The notes beneath the pieces are model-generated. The model was not told where the DNA came from and searched no databases. It saw nothing but the letters and a program-made list of their open reading frames with translations. A stretch of DNA of 35,341 nucleotides from a virus: positions 1-35,341 of IMG/VR virus record IMGVR_UViG_3300025870_000037; one strand, written 5' to 3'. The first letter of the stretch is position 1. Each line of letters opens with the position of its first letter. Below are positions 12,577 to 27,903 of the stretch, piece by piece. Both the position numbers and the translations under genes were made by a program.

Positions 12577-12764
12577 TGGACAGACAACCAGTGTTTGAGT
12601 TTATACACTATCCAGAGTTCGGAGAAGCAGAGAGAGTATGTCCAGCAGTCAAGATAGTCTATACGATATATAGTGACGGGCAAACAGTACATGACATGAG
12701 AGAGCAGTTCAATTACTTTTTAAAAGCCTGCTCCTACCACATACCACTAGATGAGGAAGAATAA
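12576..12764 (+). CDS. Hypothetical small protein (62 aa)
   Basis: The ATG overlaps the stop of the DUF3310 gene (TGATG), and GAGGAG lies 8-9 bases upstream. The sequence starts MDRQPVFEFIHYPEFGE, contains a strand-like VKIVYTIYSDGQT and ends in LDEEE. No recognised family. It overlaps the next gene by 14 bases. Confidence 0.6.
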   Translation: MDRQPVFEFIHYPEFGEAERVCPAVKIVYTIYSDGQTVHDMREQFNYFLKACSYHIPLDEEE

Positions 12765-12924
12765 AAGAATACCACTGAAGGGTGGCGCAGAGTGGGATGC
12801 TCTTACTAACGCTAAAAAACTTTATTGCTATTTAAAAAAGTCTGGAGTTGCTAAGAGCATTAAACGAGGTTACAACAAACGATTTAGGCGAGAGGGTAAG
12901 CGTGAAACAAAAGACATTAGCTAA
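12751..12924 (+). CDS. Small, very basic protein (57 aa)
   Basis: ATG at 12751 opens a frame starting MRKNKRIPLKGGAEWDAL and running to KRETKDIS. About a third of the residues are Lys or Arg. It has a helical middle (LTNAKKLYCYLKKSG) and a basic C-terminal half. Nucleic-acid binding is likely on charge alone. No family recognised. The gene overlaps both neighbours. Confidence 0.55.
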   Translation: MRKNKRIPLKGGAEWDALTNAKKLYCYLKKSGVAKSIKRGYNKRFRREGKRETKDIS

Positions 12925-13084
12925 GTGGTGGCGGATATGGGCCAAAAGTTTAGGTGAAAAGGTGGGCGAGACAGATAAGCAAGCTAATACTGTTGCTGGT
13001 ATTAGGACGGTTTGGTGGCTTACCCACATGATTACATGCATCTTTATTATTGCAGGCAACGTAAAGTCACTGGGTCTTTTATAA
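12902..13084 (+). CDS. Predicted single-pass membrane protein (60 aa), GTG start
   Basis: GTG at 12902, preceded by GAGAGGG, is preferred over the ATG at 12848, which lies deep in the previous gene and has no ribosome site. The protein has a basic amphipathic N-terminal half (MKQKTLAKWWRIWAKSL) and one membrane helix near residues ~37-53 (TVWWLTHMITCIFIIAG). It could be a small inner-membrane effector or holin-like product. The start choice is moderately certain. Confidence 0.5.
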   Translation: MKQKTLAKWWRIWAKSLGEKVGETDKQANTVAGIRTVWWLTHMITCIFIIAGNVKSLGLL

Positions 13085-13233
13085 TGGATAGAAAAGAAGA
13101 AAGGCGGGATAGGTTTGACCGCAAAAAGAAATTTAAAAAATTAACGAGGTCTTCTAAAGCTAAGACCGAACGCAAAAAAAATAAAAGGAAAGGCGATGAC
13201 AGTACAATTTATGGACATGCTGTGGAGCATTAA
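13084..13233 (+). CDS. Small, extremely basic protein (49 aa)
   Basis: The start MDRKEERRDRFDRKKK at 13084 shares a base with the previous stop. More than 40% of the residues are Lys or Arg, with no hydrophobic core, so it is probably disordered until it binds nucleic acid. The ORF can be read further upstream to 13012, but that would duplicate the coding space of the membrane gene. No family recognised. Confidence 0.5.
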   Translation: MDRKEERRDRFDRKKKFKKLTRSSKAKTERKKNKRKGDDSTIYGHAVEH

Positions 13234-13399
13234 CATGAGGTTAGGTGTGGGTCTTGACGTTGAGTCGTGTAGCAGTAGACCTGTTTGGGTTACTAGCATG
13301 GACGAAAAGATTGAAGCAGGAGAGTTTGATGGATTAGTTTTTTCTATACCTTTTTTTGTTATAACTATTGGCAACGTGTGGAAGATGGAAAATGATTGA
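13196..13399 (+). CDS. Hypothetical protein with C-terminal hydrophobic segment (67 aa)
   Basis: AGGAAAGG just upstream supports the ATG at 13196. The C-terminal third carries a hydrophobic run, GLVFSIPFFVITIGNVW, consistent with one membrane segment. The N-terminal part is unremarkable. No family recognised. The next small gene overlaps its end by 8 bases. Confidence 0.55.
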   Translation: MTVQFMDMLWSINMRLGVGLDVESCSSRPVWVTSMDEKIEAGEFDGLVFSIPFFVITIGNVWKMEND

Positions 13400-13496
13400 T
13401 ATTATTACAGGGATACTTTATTTTATATTAATAGTGCTCAGTAGCGTAGTTATTTTTGCAGCCATACACAACATTTACACAGGGGATAAAGATTAA
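13392..13496 (+). CDS. Single-pass membrane micro-protein (34 aa)
   Basis: ATG at 13392 opens MIDIITGILYFILIVLSSVV, then IFAAIHNIYTGDKD. This is a single membrane helix of about 22 residues with a short polar C-terminus. Its stop shares a base with the ribonucleotide reductase start (TAATG), and GGGGAT in its last codons may serve as that gene's ribosome site. Gene packing supports translation. Function unknown. Confidence 0.5.
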   Translation: MIDIITGILYFILIVLSSVVIFAAIHNIYTGDKD

Positions 13497-15379
13497 TGGA
13501 CAAGTACCAGCAGTTTATACACAAAAGCAGATACGCACGATGGTTGAGCACTGAAGGCCGTAGAGAAACGTGGGAAGAAACAGTGCAGCGTTACGTAGAT
13601 TTCTGGGTCAACCGTAAACAGATAGATAAGAAAACGGCAGACCGCCTGTACGATGGCATTGTAACACAGCAAGTTATGCCGTCTATGCGTTGTATGATGA
13701 CAGCGGGTGAAGCTTTAGATAAAGATAATGTGGCTGGATTTAATTGTAGTTACTTGGCTATTGATTCACCACGAAGCTTTGATGAATTGATGTATGTTTT
13801 GATGTGTGGTACTGGTGTAGGCTTTAGTGTTGAACGAGCTTTCATTAACAAGCTTCCAATAATTGCTGAAACATTTCACCCAACTGACACAACGATTGTT
13901 GTTGCCGACAGTAAGATAGGGTGGGCTTCTGCGTTTCGTGAGTTGATTGCAATGCTATATGCCGGTAAGATTCCTAAGTGGGACATGAGCAAAGTACGTC
14001 CCGCTGGTGCTAGACTTAAAACCTTTGGTGGCCGTGCTTCAGGCTCAGCGCCTCTTGAAGATTTGTTTCGCTTCTGTGTTGAAGTTTTTCAAAAAGCAGG
14101 TGGCCGCAAATTAACCTCTATTGAGTGTCACGATGTAGTGTGTAAGGTAGCTGACATTGTAGTTGTAGGTGGTGTACGCCGTTCAGCACTTATCAGCCTG
14201 TCAAATCTTTCTGACAATCGCATGGCTAAAGCTAAGACTGGCGCATGGTGGGAAGTAGACGGACATCGTAGACTGGCTAACAACAGCGTAGCATACACTG
14301 AGAAGCCAGACTTTGAGGCATTCATCAATGAGATGAAGACACTCTACGAAAGCAGGGCAGGTGAGCGAGGATTGTTTAGCCGTGTAGCTGCACAAAATAT
14401 TGCAGCTCGTAATGGACGTAGAGATTCTGAGCAAGACTTTGGCACTAACCCGTGCTCTGAGATTATCCTACGCTCTAACCAGTTCTGTAATCTATCTGAG
14501 GTTGTTGTGCGTGAAGACGACACAGCAGAAACACTTAAAGAAAAAGTAGAACTAGCTGCTATCATTGGCACACTACAGGCAACGCTTACAGACTTCCGAT
14601 ACCTGAGAAACATTTGGCAGAAGAACACAGCAGAAGAAGCGCTGCTTGGTTTAAGCATGACAGGAATTATGGACAATGAGTTACTATCGGGTAAGGGAAG
14701 TGCAGAAGAGCTTGCATCAACACTGGAAGGTCTTCGTGACCACGCTATTAAGGTCAACGAGAAATGGGCTAAGAAGCTTGGTATTGAACAGTCTGCGGCT
14801 ATTACGTGCGTTAAGCCTAGCGGCACTGTATCTCAGCTTGTTGATAGTGCTAGTGGCATCCATCCTCGCTTCTCTAAGCATTACATTCGCAGAGTACGTA
14901 GCGACAAGAAAGACCCGCTTGCAATCTTTATGGAAGCAGCAGGATTCCCAGTAGAACAAGACGTTATGTCAGAGTCTTCAGTGGTCTACAGCTTTCCAGT
15001 TAAGGCTCCCGAAGCTAGTGTGGTTGTAAAGGAAGTAGGGGCTATGCAGCAGTTAGCTCTTTGGAAGGCTTATCAAAATTACTGGTGCGAACATAAGCCA
15101 AGTATCACTGTGTACTACACTGATGACGAGTACCTTCAGGTAGCTCAGTGGATATGGGAAAACTTTGATATATGTTCGGGTATTAGTCTGTTGCCAGTTA
15201 GTGACCATGTATATCAGCAAGCTCCGTATGAGGATATTAGTGCAGAGAAGTATGAAGAGTTAGTAGCTTCTATGCCTAAAGATGTTAATTGGAATGACTT
15301 AATTTACTTTGAACAGGAAGACAACACCACAGGCTCACAAGAATTAGCGTGTGTTGGTGGAGCTTGTGAGATAGTATAG
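13496..15379 (+). CDS. nrdJ: Adenosylcobalamin-dependent (class II) ribonucleotide reductase, monomeric type
   Basis: This 627-residue enzyme reduces ribonucleotides to deoxyribonucleotides for phage DNA synthesis, using vitamin B12. GTNPCSEI holds the thiyl-radical Cys (C320) and general-base Glu (E322). C84 (FNCSYLAIDS) and C331 (QFCNL) form the active-site redox pair. The C-terminal shuttle pair is C619 and C624 in ACVGGACEIV, spaced as in the Lactobacillus RTPR enzyme. It is about 110 residues shorter than that enzyme (739). No small subunit, activase or thioredoxin gene is nearby, as expected for class II. It implies a host that makes or imports B12. Confidence 0.92.
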   Translation: MDKYQQFIHKSRYARWLSTEGRRETWEETVQRYVDFWVNRKQIDKKTADRLYDGIVTQQVMPSMRCMMTAGEALDKDNVAGFNCSYLAIDSPRSFDELMYVLMCGTGVGFSVERAFINKLPIIAETFHPTDTTIVVADSKIGWASAFRELIAMLYAGKIPKWDMSKVRPAGARLKTFGGRASGSAPLEDLFRFCVEVFQKAGGRKLTSIECHDVVCKVADIVVVGGVRRSALISLSNLSDNRMAKAKTGAWWEVDGHRRLANNSVAYTEKPDFEAFINEMKTLYESRAGERGLFSRVAAQNIAARNGRRDSEQDFGTNPCSEIILRSNQFCNLSEVVVREDDTAETLKEKVELAAIIGTLQATLTDFRYLRNIWQKNTAEEALLGLSMTGIMDNELLSGKGSAEELASTLEGLRDHAIKVNEKWAKKLGIEQSAAITCVKPSGTVSQLVDSASGIHPRFSKHYIRRVRSDKKDPLAIFMEAAGFPVEQDVMSESSVVYSFPVKAPEASVVVKEVGAMQQLALWKAYQNYWCEHKPSITVYYTDDEYLQVAQWIWENFDICSGISLLPVSDHVYQQAPYEDISAEKYEELVASMPKDVNWNDLIYFEQEDNTTGSQELACVGGACEIV

Positions 15380-15388
15380 GAGATATAC

Positions 15389-15610
15389 ATGAAAGCAAAG
15401 GAAGCTAATATACTATCATTTAAAATTATTGTCAATCATTCGGGGGCCATCCTAACTGAGATGGGTGGTATCCCCGAAGACCGACTACATGAAGTGTTTA
15501 AGGGTGATGAGCTGATGCTCGTGCGTAAGATTATCCGTGACGCTAAACCCAAACTAGAGAAGATGCATGACTATCTTGAGCGTGAGCTAACAGCCTTCTC
15601 TACCACTTAG
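15389..15610 (+). CDS. Hypothetical protein (73 aa), last rightward gene
   Basis: AGGAG lies about 8 bases before the ATG. The sequence starts MKAKEANILSFKIIVNHSGA and the C-terminal half is helical (VRKIIRDAKPKLEKMHDYLERELTAF). No recognised family. Its last 11 bases overlap the end of the leftward gene at 15600. It is probably co-transcribed with the RNR, 9 bases upstream. Confidence 0.7.
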   Translation: MKAKEANILSFKIIVNHSGAILTEMGGIPEDRLHEVFKGDELMLVRKIIRDAKPKLEKMHDYLERELTAFSTT

Positions 15611-15893
15611 ATTTATTAGCCCAATATGCCGCAGACATTTTGCCCTTGGCAATGTTCTTAGCGTGTCGGGCTTTAAAACTTGCACGTTTCTTCTTCATCT
15701 TTTCTGACTCTCCGGCCTTGGGCTTACCTGCTGTACTGGCTCCCTGCTCTCCGTATCGGATTGTCTTGATTTTATCGCCTTCTTTTGCCACAACAATATG
15801 GCTTTTCTTCGGGTGATTCGGTGTACGCTTTGGTTTATTATATCCGCTTACTCCTGCTCTGGCTAAACGTGGGTCTTTCTTTTTAGCACCCAT
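15600..15893 (-). CDS. Small basic protein typical of marine phages (97 aa)
   Basis: The protein opens MGAKKKDPRLARAGVSGYNKPKR (the first ~23 residues) and ends SAAYWANKSKW. Lys, Arg and Ala dominate. From memory, proteins with this opening and the GEQGASTAGKPKAGESEKMK middle recur in many marine phage genomes near structural or lysis genes. No function is established. A DNA-packing or virion-associated role is inferred from charge. AAGG about 10 bases upstream supports the start. Its stop lies inside the opposing gene. Confidence 0.75.
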   Translation of the reverse strand: MGAKKKDPRLARAGVSGYNKPKRTPNHPKKSHIVVAKEGDKIKTIRYGEQGASTAGKPKAGESEKMKKKRASFKARHAKNIAKGKMSAAYWANKSKW

Positions 15894-16216
15894 TACTTAT
15901 ACACCTTCCCGCCTTGGCTAAACTTTTTATCTAAAGCAAAAATGCTTTTAAATTTTTCTGCGCTTTTTATTCCAGCAGTTTTAGCAGTTTGAGCTGCTTG
16001 CTTAGCAGCATGAGCAGCAGTATTTCTTTTTGGAACAGGCTTAACTTTTTCACCTATAGTGGGGGCTGAAATATTAAGCTTAGATGGTTTGCTCTTAGCC
16101 ATTCCAGCAGGCTCACCTGTAATTATAGTTTTAGAATTTTTATAAGAATCAGGCTTTCCATAAGGAACAGTTGTTCTAACTCTATCTGTATTTTTAAAAA
16201 TTGTTTTATTTGGCAT
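15893..16216 (-). CDS. Small basic Ala/Lys-rich protein (107 aa)
   Basis: The start MPNKTIFKNTDRVR at 16216 is supported by AGGA 9 bases before it; the longer open frame to 16324 would overlap the upstream gene. The middle is Lys/Ser/Thr-rich and the segment AAHAAKQAAQTAKTAGIK is a likely alanine-rich helix, like histone H1-type tails. No family recognised. It overlaps its downstream neighbour by one base. Confidence 0.65.
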   Translation of the reverse strand: MPNKTIFKNTDRVRTTVPYGKPDSYKNSKTIITGEPAGMAKSKPSKLNISAPTIGEKVKPVPKRNTAAHAAKQAAQTAKTAGIKSAEKFKSIFALDKKFSQGGKVYK

Positions 16217-16220
16217 TGTT

Positions 16221-16475
16221 TTATTTCCTATAGGTTTTAGTTTTCTTTGCAATCTTTTTGGGCTGAGCGCTATGCTGCTTACCTTTCTTAGTGTCGGCTC
16301 TCTTCTTCTTTGTAGTTGCCGCATATTCCTTAGAGCTTAAAGCCTGCCTAGCTTTCTTAGGCAGATAGCGCTCCCCAGTTGCTTTCTTTCCTTGGGTACT
16401 AGGCTTACCTGACTTAGTACCCCACTCTTCTTTAGTCCATTTCTTTAAAGACTTTTGTGATTTTTTAAGTGCCAT
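16221..16475 (-). CDS. Small basic protein, DUF5872-like (84 aa)
   Basis: The sequence MALKKSQKSLKKWTKEEWGT, then the GERYLPKKARQALSSKEYAATT segment, matches the pattern I associate with DUF5872, a family of short basic proteins found in large viruses, phages and some bacteria. The label is from memory. It is rich in Lys, with a Lys/Thr tail (KKIAKKTKTYRK). Function unknown; DNA association is likely from charge. Confidence 0.65.
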   Translation of the reverse strand: MALKKSQKSLKKWTKEEWGTKSGKPSTQGKKATGERYLPKKARQALSSKEYAATTKKKRADTKKGKQHSAQPKKIAKKTKTYRK

Positions 16476-16618
16476 TACTTATGTACCTTCTGCACGGGAA
16501 AGTTAGCTTCCAGACTTGCTCCTTTATGCTTAACAAACTTTCCGGTATGCTTCATTAGCTTAAACGTACCGTTCTTTTGTTTCATCCAATGATGTCCTGC
16601 TGGTGCTTTTACTTTCAT
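16475..16618 (-). CDS. Small basic protein (47 aa)
   Basis: This frame starts MKVKAPAGHHWMKQKNGTFK and ends FPVQKVHK. GGGGGAGG lies 6 bases before the ATG, the best ribosome site in this cluster. It is rich in Lys and His, with no recognised motif beyond the short W-basic pattern. It overlaps the upstream gene by 4 bases and abuts the downstream one. Confidence 0.65.
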   Translation of the reverse strand: MKVKAPAGHHWMKQKNGTFKLMKHTGKFVKHKGASLEANFPVQKVHK

Positions 16619-16800
16619 TTGTAACCTCCCCCTTTAGCTTTGTATTCCTTCGCAAGCATCTGAGCCTTACGTGCTGACCACTGACCTGCCTTACCACCCT
16701 TAGTGCCTGCTTTAATTCTGTTAAACAGATTCTTTCGCATAGTAGGCTTGGTATAGTTACCTGCTTTGTTTACTGTTGATTTTTTTTTAGATGCTGGCAT
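16615..16800 (-). CDS. Small basic protein widely seen in marine phages (61 aa)
   Basis: The sequence MPASKKKSTVNKAGNYTKPT leads into QWSARKAQMLAKEYKAKGGGY. I recall near-identical small proteins in many marine phages, with no function assigned. It is strongly positively charged, with Gly-rich hinges. Position among other basic proteins and next to lysis genes suggests a virion or DNA-compaction role. AAGG-like bases precede the start. Confidence 0.7.
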   Translation of the reverse strand: MPASKKKSTVNKAGNYTKPTMRKNLFNRIKAGTKGGKAGQWSARKAQMLAKEYKAKGGGYK

Positions 16801-16805
16801 AAGAT

Positions 16806-17144
16806 TTACCTTTTAAAGTAGTTCTTGCTATCCATGTCTTGTATATTTTTGTATGAAACAAGACCCCCTTTAGATTTTCGGCCTCTTAAAATATTCTTTT
16901 GTTCGGCATCTCTATGTATTGAACCTTTTATAGTTGAGTCTCCCTTTTTATTTGGGCCTACTTTATTTGAAGTTCCCTCTGCTGGGCCTTTAATAGAGCT
17001 TTTAAAGTGTTGGGGTATTGATTTACCTGTGATAACCTTTGAAGCTAGGTTCGCAATTCCAACCGGAGTTGGTTTTAAAGCTGTAGTTATTGCCCCAACT
17101 ACAGGACTATTTGCAAGCTGTGAAATATTTTTAAATTTAGACAT
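16806..17144 (-). CDS. Hypothetical basic protein (112 aa)
   Basis: The N-terminal 45 residues (MSKFKNISQLANSPVVGAIT...) look like an amphipathic to mildly hydrophobic helix. The remainder is Lys/Gly/Ser-rich and probably flexible. No recognised family. It lies one base downstream of the holin gene's end, so it belongs to the same leftward transcript. Confidence 0.65.
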   Translation of the reverse strand: MSKFKNISQLANSPVVGAITTALKPTPVGIANLASKVITGKSIPQHFKSSIKGPAEGTSNKVGPNKKGDSTIKGSIHRDAEQKNILRGRKSKGGLVSYKNIQDMDSKNYFKR

Positions 17145-17145
17145 T

Positions 17146-17550
17146 TTATTTTTCCCTCGAAACTTTTTGAATTTTTTCTACAGAACGCATAGCCCCTAGA
17201 CCTAGCATGCCCATCAACACAGGCATCATTTCACCAGTCGGTATTAGAGGGACGACAACTTCTGATTCCAGAAGCTCTAAAATCATGTTAGTAATTGGAA
17301 TAGTAATAAAATTCCCGGCCATTCCAAATACGCAAACCCACCCGACTGCTGGCCGCCAACCAGCAACAAACAAACTTTTGTGCGCTGCTTCAGCTTGGTT
17401 TACTTCAATCTGGCCCTTAGCAAGTTCTTGTGCGTGTTTTTCTGCCATAGTGCTAAGCTCAAACGCAATAGCATTCTTCTTATCTTTATCTTCTATGAAC
17501 TTATCTAACAGTCCAGTAACCGGCCCAATCAATGAAGTTAATATAGTCAT
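17146..17550 (-). CDS. Holin, 3-TM (GTA-holin) type
   Basis: This 134-residue protein has a hydrophobic start, then a charged helix (DKDKKNAIAFELSTMAEKHAQELAKGQ). Next come SLFVAGWRPAVGWVCVFGMA, a second hydrophobic stretch (GNFITIPITNMI) and a third (MPVLMGMLGLGAMRSVEK). The AGWRPAVGWVC signature and the closing GLGAMRSVEKIQ are typical of the holin family first described in gene transfer agents. It would open the inner membrane for lysis. The M15 peptidase gene lies 9 bases upstream, making a lysis pair. Confidence 0.8.
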   Translation of the reverse strand: MTILTSLIGPVTGLLDKFIEDKDKKNAIAFELSTMAEKHAQELAKGQIEVNQAEAAHKSLFVAGWRPAVGWVCVFGMAGNFITIPITNMILELLESEVVVPLIPTGEMMPVLMGMLGLGAMRSVEKIQKVSREK

Positions 17551-17559: not shown

Positions 17560-17925
17560 TCAGTAACACCACATCACAGGAGCTTTGTCAGCTCCACAAA
17601 TCCTGCTATCCACATGGATGAAAGTACGAGCGACTCCAATACCATTAAATCCCATCTTAATAGCTTCTTCCACAATCTTGTATCTCTGATAACCATTTGC
17701 CGCTTTAATGTCGGCTGCAATACCTTGGGCATGTTTTCCTGCTTTCTCCTTACGTTTTTCAATGGAGTGGCTGGGACTTCTGTAACCACTTGTTATAATA
17801 AACGGGAAGCCACACGCCTCCCGCAGTTCGTCAAGACGGTGTATAAAGTCCCTTGACATTTCGTTTTCGCCAGTTTCTTGGCAATTAAAGTCTTCTAGTT
17901 TAAAGTATTTAAATTCTGCGCTCAT
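17560..17925 (-). CDS. M15 family peptidase, probable endolysin
   Basis: This 121-residue zinc peptidase resembles the M15A (D-Ala-D-Ala carboxypeptidase / VanY-like) domain. SGYRSPSHS is followed by KHAQGIAADI (H65, D72) and FIHVD (H104, D106), giving the metal-binding His-Asp-His set. It probably cleaves peptide cross-links in peptidoglycan at lysis. There is no signal peptide, so it would need the holin next door to reach the wall. The start overlaps the end of the giant virion gene by 4 bases (ATGA). Confidence 0.85.
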   Translation of the reverse strand: MSAEFKYFKLEDFNCQETGENEMSRDFIHRLDELREACGFPFIITSGYRSPSHSIEKRKEKAGKHAQGIAADIKAANGYQRYKIVEEAIKMGFNGIGVARTFIHVDSRICGADKAPVMWCY

Positions 17926-20900
17926 AATTCTGCCACCAAGTTATCCATATCTTTTGAATTTAAAACTCCTAGATTAATTAACACATGACTACCTTCACCT
18001 TCAGGGCTGCCAAACTCTTTTCCTATGTTTCTAGCTTGGCCGTAAAAGCTCAACCCTGCGTTTTTAGCTCCACTCAAAAATCTTAAAAGTTTAAATGTTC
18101 CGTCTGAGTTATTAAAGTTATAGCGGTCTGAAACTATGGTTTCGCCCTTATCGTTTTTAAACAGCTTCGCTTGACCTAAAGTAGTCTTCATAGAATATGC
18201 AGGACTGTTTAACTTTTTAAAGAAGTCTACCACTCCACCACCTCCTCCTACATCAGCGTATTGTGACTGACCGGCTGACTGTGTTTTGTAATCTTTGTAC
18301 TCTATCTGAGAACTTCCACGCTCTTCTTTTTCTAAAGCTATTTTAATTAAAGCCTGTAACTCTGAATCCATCAAATCATTTTCAGTTAGTGTTTCTTCGC
18401 CACCAGAAATATCATAGATTAACTGTCGTATCATAGTAGGAACAATCCTAGAGGGCTTACGCTTTTTACTCACTTCTGACAAGTCAGGAGCATCGGTTGT
18501 GTTAGCATCGCGTAATTGCTCAGCAGTCATGTCACCCATGATAGATGTAGGCTCTGGTGTTCCTGTAGTTCCCTCAGTATTTTCTGCTGTACGCCCTTTA
18601 GAATTAAATTCTACGTCACTTAGCTTTGAGAAAAACTCTTTAGTTCCTTCAAGGTCTGGAGAACTGTTAGTCCCCATAGTGTTTTCTGCTGTGCGCCCCT
18701 TAGAACTAAAGTCAACATCCGGTAGTTCAGTGTTCGACAGGTCAGGTTCATCAGGTGTATTAGCTTCGCGTACCTGCTCCATAGTCATGTCACCCATAAT
18801 GGATGTAGGCTTAGGCGCTGCTGTAGTTCCTGTTGTGTTTTCTGCTGTACGACCTCTAGAACTAAAGTCGGAACTTACTAGTTTTTTAAGGGCTGAAAGT
18901 GTCCGGCCTGTAGCACTGCTAACAGTTTCTTTAACGTCATCAAATGTTTCTGATACTGTACTTTGTACATCTTTAGAAACATCTGACAGTGTATCTAGAG
19001 TAGATTCCCCAGCTTCTGACATGACACGAGCTTTCTCTACTACAACGTCTTTTATGTTAGTAGCTTTTTCAGGTAACCCTGCAAGAATACTTTCTTTAGC
19101 TTCTTCAATTTCTTGAATAGGTTCTACTTCTTTAACTTCTGCTGCTTGAGCTGTAAACATATCAGGAGCTTTGTCGCTAAGCTTTAACTCTTGACCCTCA
19201 AAAATAACGTCAATATTTTCAATTTCATTTAATCTAGCTATTTCTTCTAGTGCAACTCCTTGGTCAATAGCAATTTGACTCAGTGTATCTCCACCCTTAA
19301 CAATGTAGCCGCCCTTAGCAGCGCCGTGTCTAGAGTCTTTAGGGTCAAATGCACGAGCAGTAACAGACTTAAACTGTTCTGGTTTAAAAAGAATATACGA
19401 ATAAGGGCTTTCGCCTACAAAACCTTGTTCTACTTCGTTGTTGTACTTAATAGAATCAAATCCTAAGTCTTCAAGAAGATTTCTAAACTCCGTATTTATT
19501 TGATTTCTTTTTAATTCTTGACGATAAAAACCAACAATATCTGTGGCCTCTCCTACTGGAGGGTCTAAGAATAAACCTTCAAATTCTTCAGAGCGTTGTG
19601 TCAATTCAGCAAGTTTAGACTGTTGTTTCTTGTTTAGCTTTAAACCTCTACGTGTAATCTCAGGCTCAAAGTATTCATCCCAACCACCGCCGGGAGTAAG
19701 GATTCTTTCAGCTTCCCAACCCGGAAGGTCTGTTTCAATAAGCAAAGGATTCCTGACATCAATGTAACCTGCGTTCATTGTAATGGGTTTTATTTTAAGA
19801 AGCTCTTCTCGCTCTACCGCTTCACCACCAAAGTATCCATACTCGTCAAGAGGCATGTCGTCTTCAATGCGAGTAGTGCTGCTTAATACTGCTTCTTCTT
19901 CTTTTAGTAAGTCTGGGTTACCAAACATTTCACCAGAGCGTTCACGAGTCAAGGATTTTGCATCTGATTCTAACTTAAACTCTTGCTTAGCTTTAGTGTT
20001 AGGAAGTCCACGTATAGCAATAGTTGTTGCTGCACCTTCAGTACCTACATGAACACCTACTTCTCTAGCAAAAGAAAATGCAAGAAAAGACTGAGCTTCT
20101 TGAAAGCTTGTTTCTGTACGAAAAAGTATAGACTGTTCTGTCGATTTTTCACGATATTTTTTACTGGCCGCTAGTCTTTCGTTTGCACTTAAAAGTTCAG
20201 GGTACTTATCATCAACAGTATTTTTTATTTTAGGAGCTTTAAAAACAGTAAAATCAATATCGCCTTCTGCTGATAATTTAATAAGTACATTTTCTGCTAT
20301 TTTATCTCCGCCCATTTCTGATAAAGTGTCCATTCTCATTCTAGCTGAACCCGAAATAAAATCGTGTAGGTTATCAAATGAAGGGTCATCAAACTTTTGT
20401 TTTTGTGCGGAAGCTACTTCTTCAGGGGTAACATTAATTTTAACTTCATCGTAAGCCTGCTTTAAAGAACGCACCATATCAGGAACCATGTATTCAATAG
20501 TTCCTTCAGGGTCTACTTCATTTTTGCTTTGCTGAATAATTCTTAAAGCTTTACGATGCTCTTCGTTATATCCCATAGCTTTTTGAGCATTAGCCCAGTT
20601 AGTAATTGCTTCATCTTCGCTTGTACTTTCAATAGCTTTCTTCCATTCAGGAAGCTTTTCAAGCTCTTCAATGCTTTTAATATCTTTTTTAATTTCACTA
20701 TGAATCATAGCATCTACAAACTCAATATGACTCAAGTCATAAAAATCTAAGGCACCTTCCATTTCTAATTCTTCTAAGCCTTCTGATATTCTTGCAGAAG
20801 TTAAACTCAAAGTATCTTCATTAAAATAGTTATCCGTGGCTTTAGATAAATTTTCAGCCACTTCGTCATCAAACTCAGCAGGTTTTTTAGAAGCTATCTT

Positions 20901-23900
20901 AGGCCCTAGAGTTCCAAGCTTATTGCCCATAAGGTCAGAAGCTGTAGTTGTAACTGCTTTAGCTCCAATTTTAACAAGCCCGCCCACCACGAAACCGGGG
21001 GCAGGTACTTCTTTCTCAAACTCTGGGATTAAACCACCAAAAATATCTTCTTGTGCTTTACGTAAGCTTCTACGATAATGAGTAACGTCTTTGTCGCCGA
21101 TTAGTGTTTTGCCCATATAAGTTCCAGACAAAACAGGAACTTTACCACCCAACGTAGGAATAATTCCTTGCTGGATTAAGTTTAAAGCATCTGAACTTGC
21201 TGGGCCAAAAGGCAAAGTAGCGTAGGACAAGGCGCTGCCAGAATACTTAGCAGAAGTCTTAGCACGATTAAAGCTATCAAGCAGCAAACCATTGCCGCCC
21301 CAACGAGCTACAGAGTTATAAAGAACTTCATCTAAGTCTTTTCCTCTCTCGCTTTCTCCGTTAGTTCGTAGATAGTTAGTCCATCGAGACATGCCTGTCA
21401 TAATTAAAGCAGCGGGGACAAGCTTAGCACTATTACGTACAGGGGCTTTAGCTAAAGACTTAGCAGCTCCTTTAAGTACAGTATTTGTAAACGCTGCCGG
21501 ATAGCTAAGCAGTTGAAACAATACAGCAGTTTTAGGATTAGAGTAAAGCAGCGGCTTTAGTCCTGACATAGCAGTAGGTTGCAAAACTACAGAGTTTGTA
21601 TAACGTGCAACGCCGCCTAAGACATCTGTTTTATAGAAATCACTATCAGTTCTAGCGCCTGCCTTATGCCAGTCAACTGCTTTTTTATAATCAATGCCTA
21701 GCTCAGCCAACTCACCAGCTCTGACCTGCATGCTCTTATCTAGCTTGCGGTTTCCATGTCCTGCAAGTTTAGCAATGTTATCTGCAATCATATGCTTTCC
21801 GCTAGAAAAAGACGTAGCCTGTACAAACTTAGTCCACTGGTCTAGCATGTTTAAACGAAAGAATTTGTTACTAGCATTTTGCAATCTTTCATTTACTAAA
21901 GCATCTCCAGATAATCTATCACCTACTTGAGCCATTGCTTGGTCAACATGAATGCTAAACTGTCGCATTTCAGACATAGCTTCTTTTACAGTTAAGCCAT
22001 GATTAGTAACTAATTTAGTTTCTAGGTCTTTTGTAACTCCTTTAAACGAAAACTCAATAGCTTCGCTTAACCCCTTAGCTGAGTTACGCACACCCGCTTT
22101 ACCAAGGTTAAGAAATACTTCTGTCAAACTTGAAACAGTTGCTAAGCCAAGCATAGATACTCTGTTTACAAAACTATAAGTATCTACAACATCTTGAGCA
22201 GTCTTTCCATATCTGTCTAAGCCTTCGCCTGTAGCAGTACGATAAAGCATTTCAAGTTGTTTTTCTTGTTTTAAGGTAAAGTCTTCGCCTTTTTCTTCTA
22301 CTTCTTTGCGAATGCGATTTATGTAAAAACCTTTAAACTGGTCAAAGTTGTTTACTCCCAGTACACGGTGCTTAGCAATAGACTTACCAGCCTGAAAAGT
22401 ATATGCGTGTAAAGAACCTAGAATATCATCGTTTAAAAACTCTTGAAAATCTGCATCATCTCCAAGGTCGTTTAGCTTTCGTTTAGCTGAGAAAAAATAA
22501 CCACCGCTTCCACCAGTGTCTACTTGATTCTGAACATCCAACATAGAATCTACAGTTCGGCGGGCATCACCTTTTGACATGTTGCCCTTAGACTGAAACA
22601 AATCCATCAAGCCTTTTTTGTTTTTTTCAATTGCAGAACGGCTCCACATACGTGGGATGTAGTTATCAACCAACTCATCAATAACTCCAATCTTTTGCAG
22701 TTGTACACCCATGTCAGCATACAAAGACTTAACGCCTGCGGCTGCTGAGTTAATAGCTTTGTTTGTAGTAGCGTCAAAGTTTTTATGCTTTAAAGGTTTA
22801 GAGCTACGCACAGACAACATGAGGGCTGCGTTCATTTCTTCAGCTAAAGTACCCTTAGCGGAGTTTATAGAAATATCTTCAACAATGGCTCGGAAGCGGT
22901 CATTGAACTTTCCTGTTACTTCTCGCTGTACTTCAGACAAGTCTTTTTCTACAACTTTATCTTGAACTTTAAATTTAATTCCAAACTCATAGCTTAATTT
23001 CTTTTGCAGTTGCGCTGCTGTACCAGAAAGATTAGTAATAGGCGATAATACACCTGCGGCTTTTCCAAAGAAGTTTCCGCTTAAATCAGATGCAATAGTA
23101 TGCAAGCCCTGCTTAACTCTATTAGTTACACCTTCTGTTGTTTCTTCGGCATCCGCAGCAGCACGAATAATGCGGAGTATTTCTTCGCGTGTTTTTTCAC
23201 CGCCACCCAAATCATCTGCAAACTTTTTAGCCGCAGCATTTAAAGAATCACTACCTTCTACAACTTTAGCTGTTGCACCTTCAGGCCCTGAAAGTCTTAA
23301 AGCTTCGTCTATAAGCGAACCTCCAGAAGAAGGTATAAACTCTCCGTCTAAAGCTTCATCATACAGAGAAGCCCCTACTTCAACAGAAGGTTCTTTGCGA
23401 GGTTCTGTAGCTTCTCTAAAATATTTGTTACCTATTTTAGAACCTACAGAATATAAACCCATGCCCGCTAAAGCGCCTACAGTTGCTCCTGCGGCGGTTT
23501 CTGTAACACTGTACTCATCCCTCTGACCAACGGCTAAGTCAAGCTCTTGAGCTACGTGTACGCCTGCACCGCCATAGATAGAGCCAATGCCTGCGGCAGC
23601 TTTATAAGGGTTAGAAGTATTAGCAGCCTTAGTAGCTTTGATGGCATTAGCCAAGACACTTCGTGCGCCCTGCTGTGCTACTTTACGCGCACCTACACCT
23701 GCAACGGCAGAGGCTCCGCCGGTTGCGGGAGCAGCAAAAAGACTTCCAAGAACTCCAATAGTTTCAGGATTAAACAACACATCTGCACCATAGTCGCCTA
23801 CAGCAGAAGCCCATTCACCAGCACCAGAAAGTTCAGCAGCATTAAACCTGTCCTGCATGAGTCTGTAGGCTGCTTTAACATCTTCTGGAGCATCTTTGAG

Positions 23901-24200
23901 TATAGTGGCTTTGCTTAGTGGAGAACCAATACGAGCTACGTCATCCCGCATAAACTCAGGAATATCTGTTTGTTTTCCTATTGTTGCTTGGTCAATTAAA
24001 GCTGAACCCAAACCACGATGCTCTGACAAATAGTCTGTAACTTTGTCAAAAGCTACTTGAACTGAAGCATCTTTTTCAAAATCAGTAACTGAATAATTTT
24101 CAGGTACAAAAGATTTATCTGAATTTAATTTTTCAGCTTCTGTTAAATACGCAGATGGGGCATTAATTTCATCAAGGTAAGCACTAAAAAGTTTTGACAT
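17922..24200 (-). CDS. Giant virion (ejection-type) protein with ART-like and LysM domains
   Basis: This 2092-residue protein is probably carried in the virion and injected with the DNA. Residues ~125-270 hold Gly/Ala-rich membrane-active helices, and the central half is mainly helical. Residues ~1358-1613 run from ILFRTET (R1361) through HVGTEGAATT to FDSIKYNNEVEQ and SYILFKPEQFKSV, the layout of the ADP-ribosyltransferase-like (ART-PolyVal) domains of polyvalent phage proteins. A LysM peptidoglycan-binding domain follows (1632-1674). Residues 1778-1908 carry GRTAENT repeats, before a Gly-rich C-terminal part. The ART call is by pattern only and activity is unproven. Confidence 0.75.
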   Translation of the reverse strand: MSKLFSAYLDEINAPSAYLTEAEKLNSDKSFVPENYSVTDFEKDASVQVAFDKVTDYLSEHRGLGSALIDQATIGKQTDIPEFMRDDVARIGSPLSKATILKDAPEDVKAAYRLMQDRFNAAELSGAGEWASAVGDYGADVLFNPETIGVLGSLFAAPATGGASAVAGVGARKVAQQGARSVLANAIKATKAANTSNPYKAAAGIGSIYGGAGVHVAQELDLAVGQRDEYSVTETAAGATVGALAGMGLYSVGSKIGNKYFREATEPRKEPSVEVGASLYDEALDGEFIPSSGGSLIDEALRLSGPEGATAKVVEGSDSLNAAAKKFADDLGGGEKTREEILRIIRAAADAEETTEGVTNRVKQGLHTIASDLSGNFFGKAAGVLSPITNLSGTAAQLQKKLSYEFGIKFKVQDKVVEKDLSEVQREVTGKFNDRFRAIVEDISINSAKGTLAEEMNAALMLSVRSSKPLKHKNFDATTNKAINSAAAGVKSLYADMGVQLQKIGVIDELVDNYIPRMWSRSAIEKNKKGLMDLFQSKGNMSKGDARRTVDSMLDVQNQVDTGGSGGYFFSAKRKLNDLGDDADFQEFLNDDILGSLHAYTFQAGKSIAKHRVLGVNNFDQFKGFYINRIRKEVEEKGEDFTLKQEKQLEMLYRTATGEGLDRYGKTAQDVVDTYSFVNRVSMLGLATVSSLTEVFLNLGKAGVRNSAKGLSEAIEFSFKGVTKDLETKLVTNHGLTVKEAMSEMRQFSIHVDQAMAQVGDRLSGDALVNERLQNASNKFFRLNMLDQWTKFVQATSFSSGKHMIADNIAKLAGHGNRKLDKSMQVRAGELAELGIDYKKAVDWHKAGARTDSDFYKTDVLGGVARYTNSVVLQPTAMSGLKPLLYSNPKTAVLFQLLSYPAAFTNTVLKGAAKSLAKAPVRNSAKLVPAALIMTGMSRWTNYLRTNGESERGKDLDEVLYNSVARWGGNGLLLDSFNRAKTSAKYSGSALSYATLPFGPASSDALNLIQQGIIPTLGGKVPVLSGTYMGKTLIGDKDVTHYRRSLRKAQEDIFGGLIPEFEKEVPAPGFVVGGLVKIGAKAVTTTASDLMGNKLGTLGPKIASKKPAEFDDEVAENLSKATDNYFNEDTLSLTSARISEGLEELEMEGALDFYDLSHIEFVDAMIHSEIKKDIKSIEELEKLPEWKKAIESTSEDEAITNWANAQKAMGYNEEHRKALRIIQQSKNEVDPEGTIEYMVPDMVRSLKQAYDEVKINVTPEEVASAQKQKFDDPSFDNLHDFISGSARMRMDTLSEMGGDKIAENVLIKLSAEGDIDFTVFKAPKIKNTVDDKYPELLSANERLAASKKYREKSTEQSILFRTETSFQEAQSFLAFSFAREVGVHVGTEGAATTIAIRGLPNTKAKQEFKLESDAKSLTRERSGEMFGNPDLLKEEEAVLSSTTRIEDDMPLDEYGYFGGEAVEREELLKIKPITMNAGYIDVRNPLLIETDLPGWEAERILTPGGGWDEYFEPEITRRGLKLNKKQQSKLAELTQRSEEFEGLFLDPPVGEATDIVGFYRQELKRNQINTEFRNLLEDLGFDSIKYNNEVEQGFVGESPYSYILFKPEQFKSVTARAFDPKDSRHGAAKGGYIVKGGDTLSQIAIDQGVALEEIARLNEIENIDVIFEGQELKLSDKAPDMFTAQAAEVKEVEPIQEIEEAKESILAGLPEKATNIKDVVVEKARVMSEAGESTLDTLSDVSKDVQSTVSETFDDVKETVSSATGRTLSALKKLVSSDFSSRGRTAENTTGTTAAPKPTSIMGDMTMEQVREANTPDEPDLSNTELPDVDFSSKGRTAENTMGTNSSPDLEGTKEFFSKLSDVEFNSKGRTAENTEGTTGTPEPTSIMGDMTAEQLRDANTTDAPDLSEVSKKRKPSRIVPTMIRQLIYDISGGEETLTENDLMDSELQALIKIALEKEERGSSQIEYKDYKTQSAGQSQYADVGGGGGVVDFFKKLNSPAYSMKTTLGQAKLFKNDKGETIVSDRYNFNNSDGTFKLLRFLSGAKNAGLSFYGQARNIGKEFGSPEGEGSHVLINLGVLNSKDMDNLVAEL
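18477..18869 (-). repeat. GRTAENT repeat region in the giant virion protein
   Basis: The motif F(S/N)S(K/R)GRTAENT occurs three times, with its Gly at residues 1783, 1835 and 1869. The first and third copies are followed by the same ~25-residue block, PTSIMGDMTxEQxRxANT...PDLS; the middle copy lacks it. This points to internal duplication of a linker that holds a short conserved peptide. Confidence 0.85.
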
Positions 24201-24218: not shown

Positions 24219-26099
24219 TTATTCTTCAGTAGAGCCGTATTTATTCATATAGTTAGCATATAGATTATTAAAACGGTTTTGTTCTTTTTCAAGTGCTTTA
24301 GATATGTTAACTATTGCTCCTTTGTTATATGTATCTTCTTCAGAAAAATAAGATATTTTTTCATTGCGAACTTTAATTTTTTTATCTAGCTCCATTAATT
24401 TTTTATATGCTCTCATTTGCCTACGGGTGTCTGCCGTTATAATACCACGCTCATCAGCAGGTGCTGGAACAGGAAGTGATGCCATGTCAATAACTTCAGG
24501 CTCTTGTTCAACTTCAACAGTAGTGCTTATTGTGTTTGGTTTTCTATTAAAAAGATTATCATATTCACGAATTAAATTTTCTTCAGTCCCTTCAATTCCT
24601 TTATTTATAACAGACTTAATAGTTTTATGTACGTTTCCAAACAACGGGCCTGTTTTACCCTCAAAATAGTTGTTAGCTTCTAACTTAGCGTCTAGAACTG
24701 AACGACCTTCAGCCGTTTCAGTACGATAAGCTTGGTAAAGATTCATTAAATTTTCACTGCCGCCTAGCTGACCTATGCCGTCACTATTGTTTATTTTTTT
24801 ATTGTTAATTGCACTTTCAATAGCAAACATAGTATGATAAGGATTTCCAAGTCCTGCATCAAATAAAACTCGATGATGGTTTCCCTCAATATACGCGTCA
24901 GCTACCATCTCTCCAGCAATTATAGAGGCTTCTGAGCTTGTTGCCCAGCCTTCATTTTTTGCACGATAAATAATTGCACCGGCTTTTGAACTAACCGTTT
25001 CATTTAGAGACATCATCATTTCTTGGCCTGTTTTAGATGTGTCCCGTTTCCTTGCTTCTCGAACAATTTCTTCAAAAGCTTCAGTAAGCTCTCCACTTTT
25101 GTCGCCTTCAATTCCCATTAAAGCTTTTTTACCTGCATCTAAATATGTTTTATTTGTAGCTGTAGCAATTTGAGAAGATAGAAGACTAAACCCCTTTCTT
25201 TGTGTCGATGCTTCTGAAGTATCAAAATTAAATTTGCCGCTTGCATCAGTTGTAACCATTGTAAGACTTTCTACTCTTCCCATTTCATCATATGTAGTCA
25301 TCGGTATTACAGCAACTTCTCCACCAAAATCAGTTTTTTGCATTGTTGGAGTTCCGAATGTGGGGCCTTTCCTTCCTAAATCTACGCCTTTCAATAAATC
25401 TTGCTCAGCAATAAATGCAGAAAGCGCTGAGTCACCTGTGCCTTCGTAAGCCGATTTGTATTGAGTTAGTTTATCTGAAGTTTCTAAAAGTTTTGAGGTA
25501 GAGTTATGTACGTCTGCTTTAAGAACTCCCGTACCTTTACCGACCCAATTAGCTATGCCGCCAACAATACCAGTACCTCTACTTCTTTTAATAGAATTAA
25601 CATAAGCATCTTCTTCACCACCTCCGGCAGATAAAAAGTCTTGAGTTAATTTTAAACCTTCTTGATGCTCTTTATATAGCTGTTGACTCCATTTTTTAGA
25701 TAGTTGATTTTTAAATAAATCATATTCATTTTGATTATACGTTCCATCAGCATAAGTAGCTTTTAAATAACTATCAACCTGTGGAGCTGCTTGAGTTTCC
25801 CAGTAAGCAGTTTCACCACCAAGAAAAGCCTTAGCAGTTTTATCAGCAGTGGTATACCTAGTGCTTTCATCAAGAGCACTTGTAGTTCTTAATTTGTTAG
25901 CTAAGTTTTCTTCGTTATTTAAAAAATTATTTTGACGCTGAGTAAAAATATCTGAAACAACCTCTGTACCTATTTTTACAGCCGCTGCTTTCCAAAGATT
26001 TCTTTTCTGTTCTTTTTTTGCTTGGCTTCTAAGCTTATCGTTTCTTTGACGAATATCCGCTAAAAGACTTTCACCGTATGCAATTGAATCTTGTGCCAT
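24219..26099 (-). CDS. Putative internal virion protein (626 aa)
   Basis: This long, mostly helical protein starts MAQDSIAYGESLLADIRQRN, with a Lys/Arg/Gln-rich N-terminal coiled-coil-like segment and a short Gly-rich stretch (GTGIVGGIANWVGKGTGV) near residue 180. No family could be named. Placement immediately upstream of the giant ejection-type protein, in the same tight transcript, suggests a second internal or ejection protein, as in the gp14-gp15-gp16 set of T7. AAGGA precedes the ATG. Confidence 0.65.
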   Translation of the reverse strand: MAQDSIAYGESLLADIRQRNDKLRSQAKKEQKRNLWKAAAVKIGTEVVSDIFTQRQNNFLNNEENLANKLRTTSALDESTRYTTADKTAKAFLGGETAYWETQAAPQVDSYLKATYADGTYNQNEYDLFKNQLSKKWSQQLYKEHQEGLKLTQDFLSAGGGEEDAYVNSIKRSRGTGIVGGIANWVGKGTGVLKADVHNSTSKLLETSDKLTQYKSAYEGTGDSALSAFIAEQDLLKGVDLGRKGPTFGTPTMQKTDFGGEVAVIPMTTYDEMGRVESLTMVTTDASGKFNFDTSEASTQRKGFSLLSSQIATATNKTYLDAGKKALMGIEGDKSGELTEAFEEIVREARKRDTSKTGQEMMMSLNETVSSKAGAIIYRAKNEGWATSSEASIIAGEMVADAYIEGNHHRVLFDAGLGNPYHTMFAIESAINNKKINNSDGIGQLGGSENLMNLYQAYRTETAEGRSVLDAKLEANNYFEGKTGPLFGNVHKTIKSVINKGIEGTEENLIREYDNLFNRKPNTISTTVEVEQEPEVIDMASLPVPAPADERGIITADTRRQMRAYKKLMELDKKIKVRNEKISYFSEEDTYNKGAIVNISKALEKEQNRFNNLYANYMNKYGSTEE

Positions 26100-26101: not shown

Positions 26102-26680
26102 TTACTGTCCTTCAGGTTGTGCCATTAGGCTAGGTTGTTCTGGAACTTCGCTTACTTCTTCTGTTACTTCTTCTTTAACTGTAGGCTCAAGAAGACTAGG
26201 AAGATTTTTCATTTCTGTAGCCATGTCTTCAGTAATAAAACCTTGTGGAATCATGGAGTTTCTAAGTTCTTCTAATTTGCCTTTTTCCATTTCAACGCCG
26301 AAGATGTCGCCTTCTTCTTCATCGTTGTCAATCTTAATGTCTAAGTCTAAACGCTCAGCAAGTGCAATAAGCATATAAGCTAAAGGCTCAGCAAGCATCA
26401 TCATTAGGTCAGGATTAAACTTGCCTTGTTGAAACTGGTCAAATAATAAAACTTGTACAATGCTCATTATTGGAACACCTTTAGATATTCCAGTCATTAA
26501 AGCTACATAAGTTTCATCTTCAGTTACAAAGTCCCACATATACATACTAGCTTCGTGTACGTTAGTAAACTCTGGAGGTCTTTCATACGGAGCAGGATTT
26601 TCCGGGTCTGTAGTAAGAGACTGGCCCGGAATAGGTCTGTTCATTTTAGACACTTCTTGCATATATACTTCTTCTTCCAT
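26102..26680 (-). CDS. Putative virion-associated protein (192 aa)
   Basis: GGAGG 9 bases upstream supports the ATG at 26680. Internal Met codons lead to MNRPIPGQSLTTDPENPAPY, the sequence at which related marine phage proteins (from memory) usually begin. The core (VALMTGISKGVPIMSIVQVLL...FQQGKFNPDLMMMLAEPLAYMLI) is helical and partly hydrophobic. The C-terminus is acidic and Pro/Glu-rich. It lies between two structural genes; function unknown. Its start overlaps the stop of the 407-aa gene. Confidence 0.7.
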   Translation of the reverse strand: MEEEVYMQEVSKMNRPIPGQSLTTDPENPAPYERPPEFTNVHEASMYMWDFVTEDETYVALMTGISKGVPIMSIVQVLLFDQFQQGKFNPDLMMMLAEPLAYMLIALAERLDLDIKIDNDEEEGDIFGVEMEKGKLEELRNSMIPQGFITEDMATEMKNLPSLLEPTVKEEVTEEVSEVPEQPSLMAQPEGQ

Positions 26681-27903
26681 TATGCTGAACCTCCAATTCC
26701 TCTAGCCATCGTTTGTGTATAGAAATTAGCGCCAGCTCCAAAGGGTGCCAAGTTATAAAAATCAGTACCCGCAAGCTGAACTTGCATGGCTCTGTCGTTA
26801 ATTTCTGGAGAGCCATAAGTTCCTGCTGGGGCTGTATCAAACTGAGCAACAGCGCCGTAGTACGCTTTAGCACCTTCAGGCTTAGCTTCTAAACCTATGT
26901 TTTGAAATAGTCGCTGTTTGCCTAGCGCTACCATGTCGTCTGGCATGCCAGCTACTTGTTCGCTAAGGTAGTCTCTACCTTCTTCAAATACGGCTTCACC
27001 TAAAGGTCTGTCGTCAAGAAACTCTTTATATTTTGTTGAAGTATAGTCTGTAGCTTTCTCTAACAGACTTTGTTGTTTTTCAAATGTAGGCTTATCAATT
27101 TGTATGCCACCTGACTCAGCAACCATTTGCTTTCCTGTTCCGCTTACATCAAAAGCGCTTGAATCAGGAAACTTAGACGCTTGTTCTTGCATTGCATTAG
27201 TCTTGCTCTCAACATAATCGGATTTAGTTATTTCAGATGTTGTTGAGCTAGAGACATCTGAAGATTTAAAGCGCTCATCTATTGAATCAGGAAACTTAGA
27301 CGCTTGTTCCTGCATTGCTTTAGTTTTACTCTCAACATAATCGGATTTAGTTATTTTAGCCTGAGCTTTTTTAGCATCTAAAGCAGCCTGTTGAGACGCA
27401 GTAGGCATTCTGCCGTTAATAGCGTTTTCAAAATTAGTCATAATATTTTTAGAGTTTTCTAATACAGAATCTTGAGTAGCGTTCCAAGCAGACTCAAAGC
27501 TTTTACTAGTAATATCAGTGCTTATCCCCATTTGATTTAATGCAGCCCCACTAAACTCTCTTATAAAAGTAGTGACACCGTCAGTCACAGTCTTGAACGC
27601 AGAGTGTCCTGCTTTTGCAAAGCTTCCGCCTGCCTCAAGAACTTTACCTGCGGCTTGAGCAATCCTTCCGCCTTGAGCTAAAGCGCCTGTAACACCTCTA
27701 AATGTTTGTCCAACTACGTTACCTATTCCCGAAAACAAGTTACCCATCATGGCACCTACAGGAGTAAACATAAGAGCCAACTGGCCTACAATGCCTATCT
27801 TGCCCATAAACTTGCCAATCTTTTTAAAGGCAGACTTAATGCCCTTGCCAATGCTTTTAAAACCTTTCTTAACTTTTTTAAATACTTTTTTAAAAAATCC
27901 CAT
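26680..27903 (-). CDS. Membrane-active virion protein with internal duplication (407 aa)
   Basis: The N-terminus is an amphipathic Lys/Phe-rich helix (MGFFKKVFKKVKKGFKSIGK). A hydrophobic Gly-rich stretch (IVGQLALMFTPVGAMMGNLF, then GIGNVVGQTF) follows. This pattern suits a protein that inserts into or disrupts membranes during DNA ejection. Residues ~183-207 and ~224-248 are near-identical copies of ITKSDYVESKT(K/N)AMQEQASKF. The rest is unremarkable. No named family. It is flanked by other large virion-type genes in the same direction. Confidence 0.65.
   Translation of the reverse strand: MGFFKKVFKKVKKGFKSIGKGIKSAFKKIGKFMGKIGIVGQLALMFTPVGAMMGNLFSGIGNVVGQTFRGVTGALAQGGRIAQAAGKVLEAGGSFAKAGHSAFKTVTDGVTTFIREFSGAALNQMGISTDITSKSFESAWNATQDSVLENSKNIMTNFENAINGRMPTASQQAALDAKKAQAKITKSDYVESKTKAMQEQASKFPDSIDERFKSSDVSSSTTSEITKSDYVESKTNAMQEQASKFPDSSAFDVSGTGKQMVAESGGIQIDKPTFEKQQSLLEKATDYTSTKYKEFLDDRPLGEAVFEEGRDYLSEQVAGMPDDMVALGKQRLFQNIGLEAKPEGAKAYYGAVAQFDTAPAGTYGSPEINDRAMQVQLAGTDFYNLAPFGAGANFYTQTMARGIGGSA
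27161..27357 (-). repeat. In-frame 74-bp direct duplication, two copies
   Basis: Bases 27161-27234 and 27284-27357 are nearly identical, differing at a handful of positions, and are offset by 123 bp (41 codons). The duplicated block encodes about 24 residues of the 407-aa virion protein. The high DNA identity suggests a recent event or ongoing copy exchange. Confidence 0.85.

Follow-up and report, generated by a model that had tools for sequence, protein, structure and literature searches.

Podovirus ejection proteins are usually viewed as a passive conduit for the genome. Polyvalent phage proteins with ADP-ribosyltransferase (ART) domains and with wall-active domains have been described (Iyer et al. 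2017, PMC5512222), and the packaging of ARTs in phage heads has been proposed as a wide strategy, yet any ART is found in only ~3% of siphoviruses and podoviruses (PMC9503650). Here we describe a giant protein of 2,092 amino acids, P0001, encoded on a viral DNA window of 35,341 bases that is the entire IMG/VR record IMGVR_UViG_3300025870_000037; the evidence throughout is computational. In addition to a putative conduit core, P0001 bears two further domain types, an ART-like domain and a cassette made of a LysM and a colicin-M-like domain. These domains are conserved among relatives, occur separately and, at the C-terminus, are swapped between phages. On balance, we favour the view that P0001 is an ejection protein which enters the host and combines a conduit core with an ART-type enzyme acting inside the cell and a LysM/colicin-M-like cassette at the wall and inner membrane.

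Results

The giant protein occupies the place of an ejection protein

The open reading frame (ORF) of P0001 is uninterrupted and starts with ATG, as the sequence-only reading, an earlier inspection of the letters by a model, had indicated; that reading did not state that it lies on the minus strand. The ORF is not a chance frame, since it matches phrog_7348 with 2,685 bits and relatives are encoded at 28 viral loci (31-98% identity, many full-length; denoted by L numbers). Some of the relatives represent repeat samplings of a single virus, and our architecture tally dropped only identical or contained ORFs. No full-length relative turned up in the INPHARED phage set. When the PDB was searched by sequence and by profile, the whole protein, the ART domain and the C-terminal domain yielded neither an ART nor a colicin M match.

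The most conserved part is a core of ~650 residues (Table 1), the profile of which matches proteins of Slicky01 (E = 1.6e-26), Phriendly (1.8e-18) and KPP25 (ORF088, 6e-14); ORF088 is a 'virion structural protein' by its annotation label. The late genes on the minus-strand half encode an S74-chaperone tail spike, a glycosyltransferase-like protein, proteins of 1088, 407, 192, 626 and 2092 amino acids, an M15 peptidase and a GTA-type holin. The order tail spike/1088/407/192/626/2092/M15/holin is kept in the closest relatives and decays with distance. The slot of the large protein is the same in HTVC103P, HTVC115P and CRP-403; in CRP-403 it goes by the name internal virion protein D. The late position beside internal proteins and the homology to an annotated virion protein are features of podovirus ejection proteins, and several unrelated domains in one protein amid virion genes are the mark of phage polyvalent proteins. 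Gene order and core homology thus support the ejection-type character that the sequence-only reading had assumed, and P0001 is probably injected together with the phage DNA. A membrane-active part had also been claimed, and this is supported only in part: hydropathy reveals Gly/Ala-rich hydrophobic stretches at residues 148-168 and 236-256 and further ones at 677-697 and 1065-1085, and the Gly/Ala-rich N-terminal segment is seen in several relatives too.

In L066, L070-L072, L075-L077, L079, L080, L083, L099 and L100 the core and the ART part are encoded on neighbouring, slightly overlapping ORFs. That the two parts are adjacent ORFs in at least 12 relatives argues for conduit and cargo being functions that can be separated.

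Table 1. Coordinates of the giant ORF, its domains and key residues, and neighbouring genes in the window.
Feature	Position	Strand	Basis
Giant ORF P0001, 2,092 aa	17922..24200	-	open frame, ATG start, relatives
Gly/Ala-rich hydrophobic N-terminal segment, residues 130-260, possibly membrane-active	23421..23813	-	hydropathy; inference
Most conserved core, residues 420-1080, KPP25 ORF088-related	20961..22943	-	profile search
ART-superfamily-like domain, residues ~1335-1622	19335..20198	-	conservation, Pfam sub-threshold, AF2, VIA
R1361, strand 1, invariant 41/41	20118..20120	-	alignment and AF2 model
H1384, strand 2, 40/41	20049..20051	-	alignment and AF2 model
E1591, just past strand 5, motif GFDSxxYxNxxE, 41/41	19428..19430	-	alignment and AF2 model
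LysM (PF01476), residues 1632-1674	19179..19307	-	Pfam 3.2e-10
Long helices / coil, predicted, residues 1696-1780	18861..19115	-	AF2 model
Low-confidence linker, probably disordered, residues ~1771-1915, DFSSKGRTAENT-type repeats; module swap starts here	18456..18890	-	AF2 model, comparison
C-terminal domain, residues 1917-2092, colicin-M-like fold, exchanged among close relatives	17925..18452	-	profiles, VIA
D2025-R-Y-N-F2029, counterpart of the colicin M DxYDF signature	18114..18128	-	alignment; colicin M motif PMC8469651
626-aa ORF, upstream of giant ORF; second-internal-protein position	24219..26099	-	gene order
407-aa ORF, amphipathic Lys/Gly/Phe N-terminus; candidate small ejection protein	26680..27903	-	sequence, inference
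M15 peptidase, separate endolysin; overlaps stop codon of giant ORF	17560..17925	-	Pfam/PHROG-type profile matches
GTA-type holin, three transmembrane segments	17146..17550	-	family matches

An ART-like domain with invariant polar residues

An ART-like region had been placed at residues 1358-1613. It proved to be a discrete conserved domain with slightly wider borders, for which a confident AlphaFold 2 (AF2) model was obtained that VIA structure comparison matches to ART folds; on these models, its assignment to the ART superfamily is well supported. In an alignment of 41 diverse sequences, most of them at 27-50% identity to the window copy, R1361, E1380, G1386, G1478, D1582, Y1586, N1588, E1591, S1601, Y1602, F1605, P1607 and Q1609 are invariant, and the single exception at H1384 is a replacement of H by N. 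The sequence-only reading had named the lack of an ART fold or of residues that bind nicotinamide adenine dinucleotide (NAD+) as its refutation. It withstood this check: the predicted fold is ART-like, and strands 1 and 2 and the stretch after strand 5 bear polar residues that vary little or not at all.

The Pfam family ART-PolyVal (PF18760) is matched by 23 of 37 diverse relatives with a best E-value of 1.1e-4, those inspected in detail staying below the curated cut-off of 31.2 bits: the window copy scores 13.3 bits (E = 0.15) and the best such relative 22.5 bits. When single genomes were searched, the window gave a match at the expected place with E = 0.0032 and relatives reached 4e-6, and none of 24 records exceeded the cut-off.

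A first AF2 model, built from 19 sequences, had a mean predicted local distance difference test score (pLDDT) of 59 and a weak Foldseek list; VIA matched it to the pre-ejectosome of cyanophage A4 (Z 6.0), to a number of tankyrases (Z ~5, one 5.1) and to other PARPs (Z ~4). The second model, from 75 sequences, reaches a pLDDT of ~95 in the core of the ART domain and resembles the toxins MbcT (Z 6.1, 124 residues aligned) and NatT (5.5, 143), the anti-CRISPR protein of PDB entry 6kyf (5.3, 126), the ART AcrIF11, and again the A4 pre-ejectosome (Z 7.6, with an aligned range running past the ART part). VIA Z values below 8 can arise fortuitously and those obtained here are moderate; a chance match is nevertheless unlikely, because ART-fold proteins recur across two models and agree with the independent Pfam profile.

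The classical ART-PolyVal active site (Tox-ART-HYD2 clade) is H-Y-D (PMC5512222). Because its residue set is R-H-E instead of H-Y-D, the ART domain of P0001 is, by sequence, of a type related to, yet distinct from, ART-PolyVal rather than a member. It may be an active NAD+-dependent transferase. Relatives of the domain in cellular genomes could not be confirmed.

LysM and the C-terminal domain occur together

The LysM lies exactly where the sequence-only reading had put it and scores 40.2 bits against a cut-off of 20.9; by VIA (Z ~5, root mean square deviation 2.2-2.5 Å) it is 43-45% identical to the LysM of a T. thermophilus NlpC/P60 protein. The same reading had deemed a LysM beside an ART-like fold unusual in such a protein. 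This rarity is not supported: ARTs in injected phage proteins are established (PMC5512222, PMC9503650), the A4 pre-ejectosome has an ART-like region, and ART plus LysM within one ORF recurs in more than 30 marine viral ORFs, often with another domain between them. In L006, L015, L017 and others, an extra domain of ~350 residues with the motifs DEIQSD and AAEEGYDQVALTTGR separates the two, whereas the window clade (with L002-L005) lacks it and has the LysM directly after the ART (junction GAAKGG/YIVKGGDTLSQ versus AEGG/YVIQKGDTLSQ); in L012-L014 the extra domain is present and the LysM absent. The extra domain of L006 spans residues ~1790-2105 of ORF 7866-15575, has no Pfam match and differs from that of L017 despite 98%-identical cores.

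A further domain at residues 1917-2092 had been absent from the sequence-only account. It is modelled with pLDDT values of mostly 76-96, and our scans found it at 45 loci. Since 30 of the 32 LysM-bearing ORFs in the non-redundant tally also possess this domain, the LysM travels, as judged from domain co-occurrence, with the C-terminal domain rather than with the ART; in L062 the LysM is located after it. Iterated profiles merge three modules that look different at first sight, A (window, L006, L015, L010), B (L002, L003, L005, L016, L017) and C (L004, L018) into one family, which is also represented in HTVC115P gp40 and, as sole domain, in Roseobacter phage CRP-4 gp36. A Foldseek search against predicted viral structures returned ICBM3 and SIO1 Gp23. 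Among 172 chains aligned by VIA are seven colicin M family entries (pectocin M2, syringacin M, colicin M, PaeM) with Z values of 2.7-4.0 over 105-131 residues.

In colicin M, D226, Y228, D229, H235 and R236 of the stretch D226-K-Y-D-F-N-A-S-T-H-R236 are required for lipid II hydrolysis (PMC8469651), and the family motif is DxYDx5HR (PMC5821083, PMC8469651). Sequence comparison revealed that the phage domain family conserves DxYDF(N), like the colicin M motif. L089 has DKYDFNASKNR, modules B and C show DxYDF but no HR, and the window copy reads DRYNFNNSDGT and lacks the equivalents of D229, H235 and R236; the full motif is thus incomplete in the window copy and in modules B and C. Since three of the five colicin M catalytic residues are missing, catalysis by the window's C-terminal domain is doubtful. 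Pfam PF14859 had no match in 25 records, nor in the control genomes; a DKYDFNxxxHR pattern search for colicin M sequences found none, and tblastn with the L089 domain against plasmids and phages retrieved no colicin M. The alignment of the C-terminal domain is too diverse for scanning. As sequence methods detect no colicin M, we call the domain, on the strength of its model, colicin-M-like and not a colicin M family member.

The C-terminal module is exchanged between near-identical phages

P0001 and its L003 counterpart are 94-100% identical in each block of 100 residues up to residue 1800, after which identity falls to 48%, 26% and 11%; in the M15 and holin genes past the swap it is again 97-99%. 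The swap, which sets in after residues ~1800-1870, is abrupt and occurs between proteins that are 98% identical. L006 and L017 show the same pattern and also vary in a second region, located between the ART and the LysM. In L010 the module is of the window type, though its ART is only 49% identical. The M15 gene follows the C-terminal module with no gene in between, and nothing thus hints at an immunity gene paired with the module.

Neighbouring genes and affiliation

The plus-strand half encodes a DnaB-type primase/helicase, a family A DNA polymerase, endonuclease I and a B12-type ribonucleotide reductase. The polymerase is nearest to those of the pelagiphages HTVC115P (50%) and HTVC103P (48%), and the class II ribonucleotide reductase suggests a cobavirus-like gene set; megablast of the whole window against phages found no match.

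Among the late genes, the 626-aa ORF is without any profile match. The 407-aa protein begins with the strongly amphipathic, basic segment MGFFKKVFKKVKKGFKSIGKGIKSAFKKIGKFMGK and is 67% identical to the L003 copy, compared with 90-99% for most neighbouring genes. The 1088-aa low-complexity protein (27918-31184, minus strand) has a Gly/acidic N-terminal part and a long Gln/Asn/Met-rich helical part; it has no family matches. A glycosyltransferase-2-like gene (31200-32213, minus strand; E = 0.0021, under the cut-off) lies amid the late structural genes and is kept in near relatives. The tail spike (33264-35324, minus strand), with degenerate 'NNTAVGxxAL' repeats and a C-terminal S74 chaperone domain, has a frame that passes the window end. 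A row of five small, very basic ORFs of 97, 143, 84, 61 and 112 amino acids occupies positions 15600-17144 of the minus strand, several of which are conserved in HTVC103P, HTVC115P and CRP-4. In L067, L077, L083, L085 and L099 the ART/colicin-M-like ORF continues in frame, at its C-terminus, into the 97-aa ORF; these fusions in five relatives suggest that the 97-aa product is virion-associated.

Discussion

The following account of how P0001 may be packaged and ejected, how it may use NAD+ and what its LysM and C-terminal domain may do is inferred from gene order, domain content and models. P0001 would be the large internal protein of a short-tailed marine phage resembling T7, the cobaviruses and HTVC103P, carried in the head and driven into the host along with the DNA. 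Its N-terminal part and core (residues 1-1080) would form or line a trans-envelope conduit, and the ART domain would be cargo that uses NAD+ and, most likely, ADP-ribosylates a host protein once inside. The cassette that follows would face the envelope: the LysM may hold the peptidoglycan, while the colicin-M-like domain, on a flexible repeat linker and exchanged between phages, may meet the outer face of the inner membrane, where lipid II or an entry factor would be its partner. In this way, P0001 may act on the host interior and the envelope in one delivery.

Several observations weigh against this proposal. Foldseek itself gave no ART match at E < 0.1 for either model; the ART assignment draws on VIA Z values of 4-7.6 and sub-threshold Pfam scores. 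Likewise, hhalign of the ART profile against the single ART sequences of RPP1 and A-4L gave no match, although single-sequence targets make this test uninformative, and the active-site residues are R-H-E, not H-Y-D. At the sequence level, neither Pfam Colicin_M nor PDB chains match the C-terminal domain, and its resemblance to colicin M stays at Z values of 4 or below.

The alternatives bear on different parts of the protein. P0001 could be purely structural, with both folds serving as a scaffold for assembly or DNA threading and having no enzyme activity, much as the A4 pre-ejectosome holds its ART-like region as part of the particle structure; the missing catalytic residues of the window's C-terminal module fit in with this. 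However, R1361, H1384, E1591 and N1588 are kept across sequences of ~30% identity, as is typical of an active site, and the ART is sometimes a separate ORF and hence not needed in cis for the conduit, so that we consider a mere scaffold rather improbable. About as improbable, in our estimation, is that the injected ART serves as an NAD+-dependent anti-defence factor, acting on immune complexes or on NAD+ itself, instead of a host-takeover enzyme. The resemblance to the 6kyf anti-CRISPR and to the NAD+-degrading toxins MbcT and NatT speaks for it, as does the argument that packaged ARTs counter NAD+-derived restriction (PMC9503650), but similarity of fold does not determine the substrate. A role in lysis, in which the LysM would direct a late wall-degrading activity, is very improbable. 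It would agree with the label 'endolysin' of phrog_7348, with the LysM and with the adjoining holin and M15 genes, but that label plausibly derives from the LysM alone, and an annotated virion protein is among the relatives of the core. We rejected an endolysin identity of P0001 because no peptidoglycan hydrolase domain was found in it and an M15 endolysin and a holin are encoded separately.

The strongest competitor concerns the C-terminal module, which could be a specificity element for inner-membrane entry or superinfection exclusion and not a lipid II enzyme. We give this reading a substantial chance, if somewhat short of even: within the gene, near-identical phages differ mainly there (P0001 versus L003, L006 versus L017), the colicin M motif is incomplete, and the next gene is that for M15, no dedicated immunity gene adjoining the module. 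On the other hand, D2025, Y/F2027 and F2029 are kept, or nearly so, in all variants, and the co-occurrence with LysM points to the wall. The boldest form of our favoured view, an injected ejection protein with enzymatic cargo, is a single polypeptide, injected by marine podoviruses, that combines a cytoplasmic ART-type enzyme with a peptidoglycan-anchored, lipid-II-directed periplasmic domain of colicin M type, the latter diversifying by cassette exchange like polymorphic toxins. This is tentative and, as a whole, unlikely; if true, it would mean that phages possess their own branch of the colicin M fold, serving entry rather than the killing of competitors.

Both additional domain types can be separated, lost, re-ordered or swapped and thus offer defined constructs for testing enzyme delivery by ejection proteins. 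If true, the presence of a colicin-M-like domain in a protein of phage entry would connect the routes by which bacteriocins and phages cross the envelope. The module exchange between near-identical phages makes it testable whether inner-membrane entry or superinfection exclusion drives the diversity of ejection proteins in abundant marine phages.

Comparison with known systems

P0001 shares with polyvalent proteins, whose prototype is the RPP1 virion RNA polymerase (vRNAP) with ART-PolyVal, its large size, multidomain make-up and place among late virion genes; in that class, ART is the commonest modifying domain and wall-active domains occur (PMC5512222). It differs in a core that does not match the N4 vRNAP, in R/H/E instead of H-Y-D, in that no metallopeptidase domain was found, and in its LysM plus colicin-M-like cassette, which is not described in the passages of PMC5512222 consulted; the word LysM is absent from that paper. 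Phrog_7348, with 2,564 columns, spans core, ART and C-terminal domain like P0001 and is probably mislabelled as 'endolysin'.

Podovirus ejection proteins with an ART have a precedent in ORF27L of Anabaena phage A-4L, which matches ART-PolyVal weakly on its C-terminal side (E = 0.0035). From its length and position, this protein probably corresponds to chain B of the cyanophage A4 pre-ejectosome (PDB 9k3a), a large internal protein in which, as in P0001, an ART-like fold lies close to the C-terminus. In contrast to P0001, to which it has no detectable sequence similarity, it has LYHGT...GTYFS (H/Y type) and no Pfam LysM. With T7 gp16 (internal virion protein D), P0001 has in common that it is the largest and last of the 407/192/626/2092-aa set and a presumed conduit component, but it has neither a transglycosylase domain nor a sequence match to solved T7 proteins. 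Phage T4 Alt, a head-packaged, co-injected ART, is a functional model, although it belongs to another ART family and is a standalone enzyme. Compared with the colicin M family (colicin M, pectocin M2, syringacin M, PaeM), the C-terminal domain is part of a phage protein, with no receptor domain or immunity gene seen and no sequence-profile match, but it resembles that family in its predicted fold and has the DxYDF motif, most closely in L089, where DKYDFNASKNR stands against DKYDFNASTHR of colicin M.
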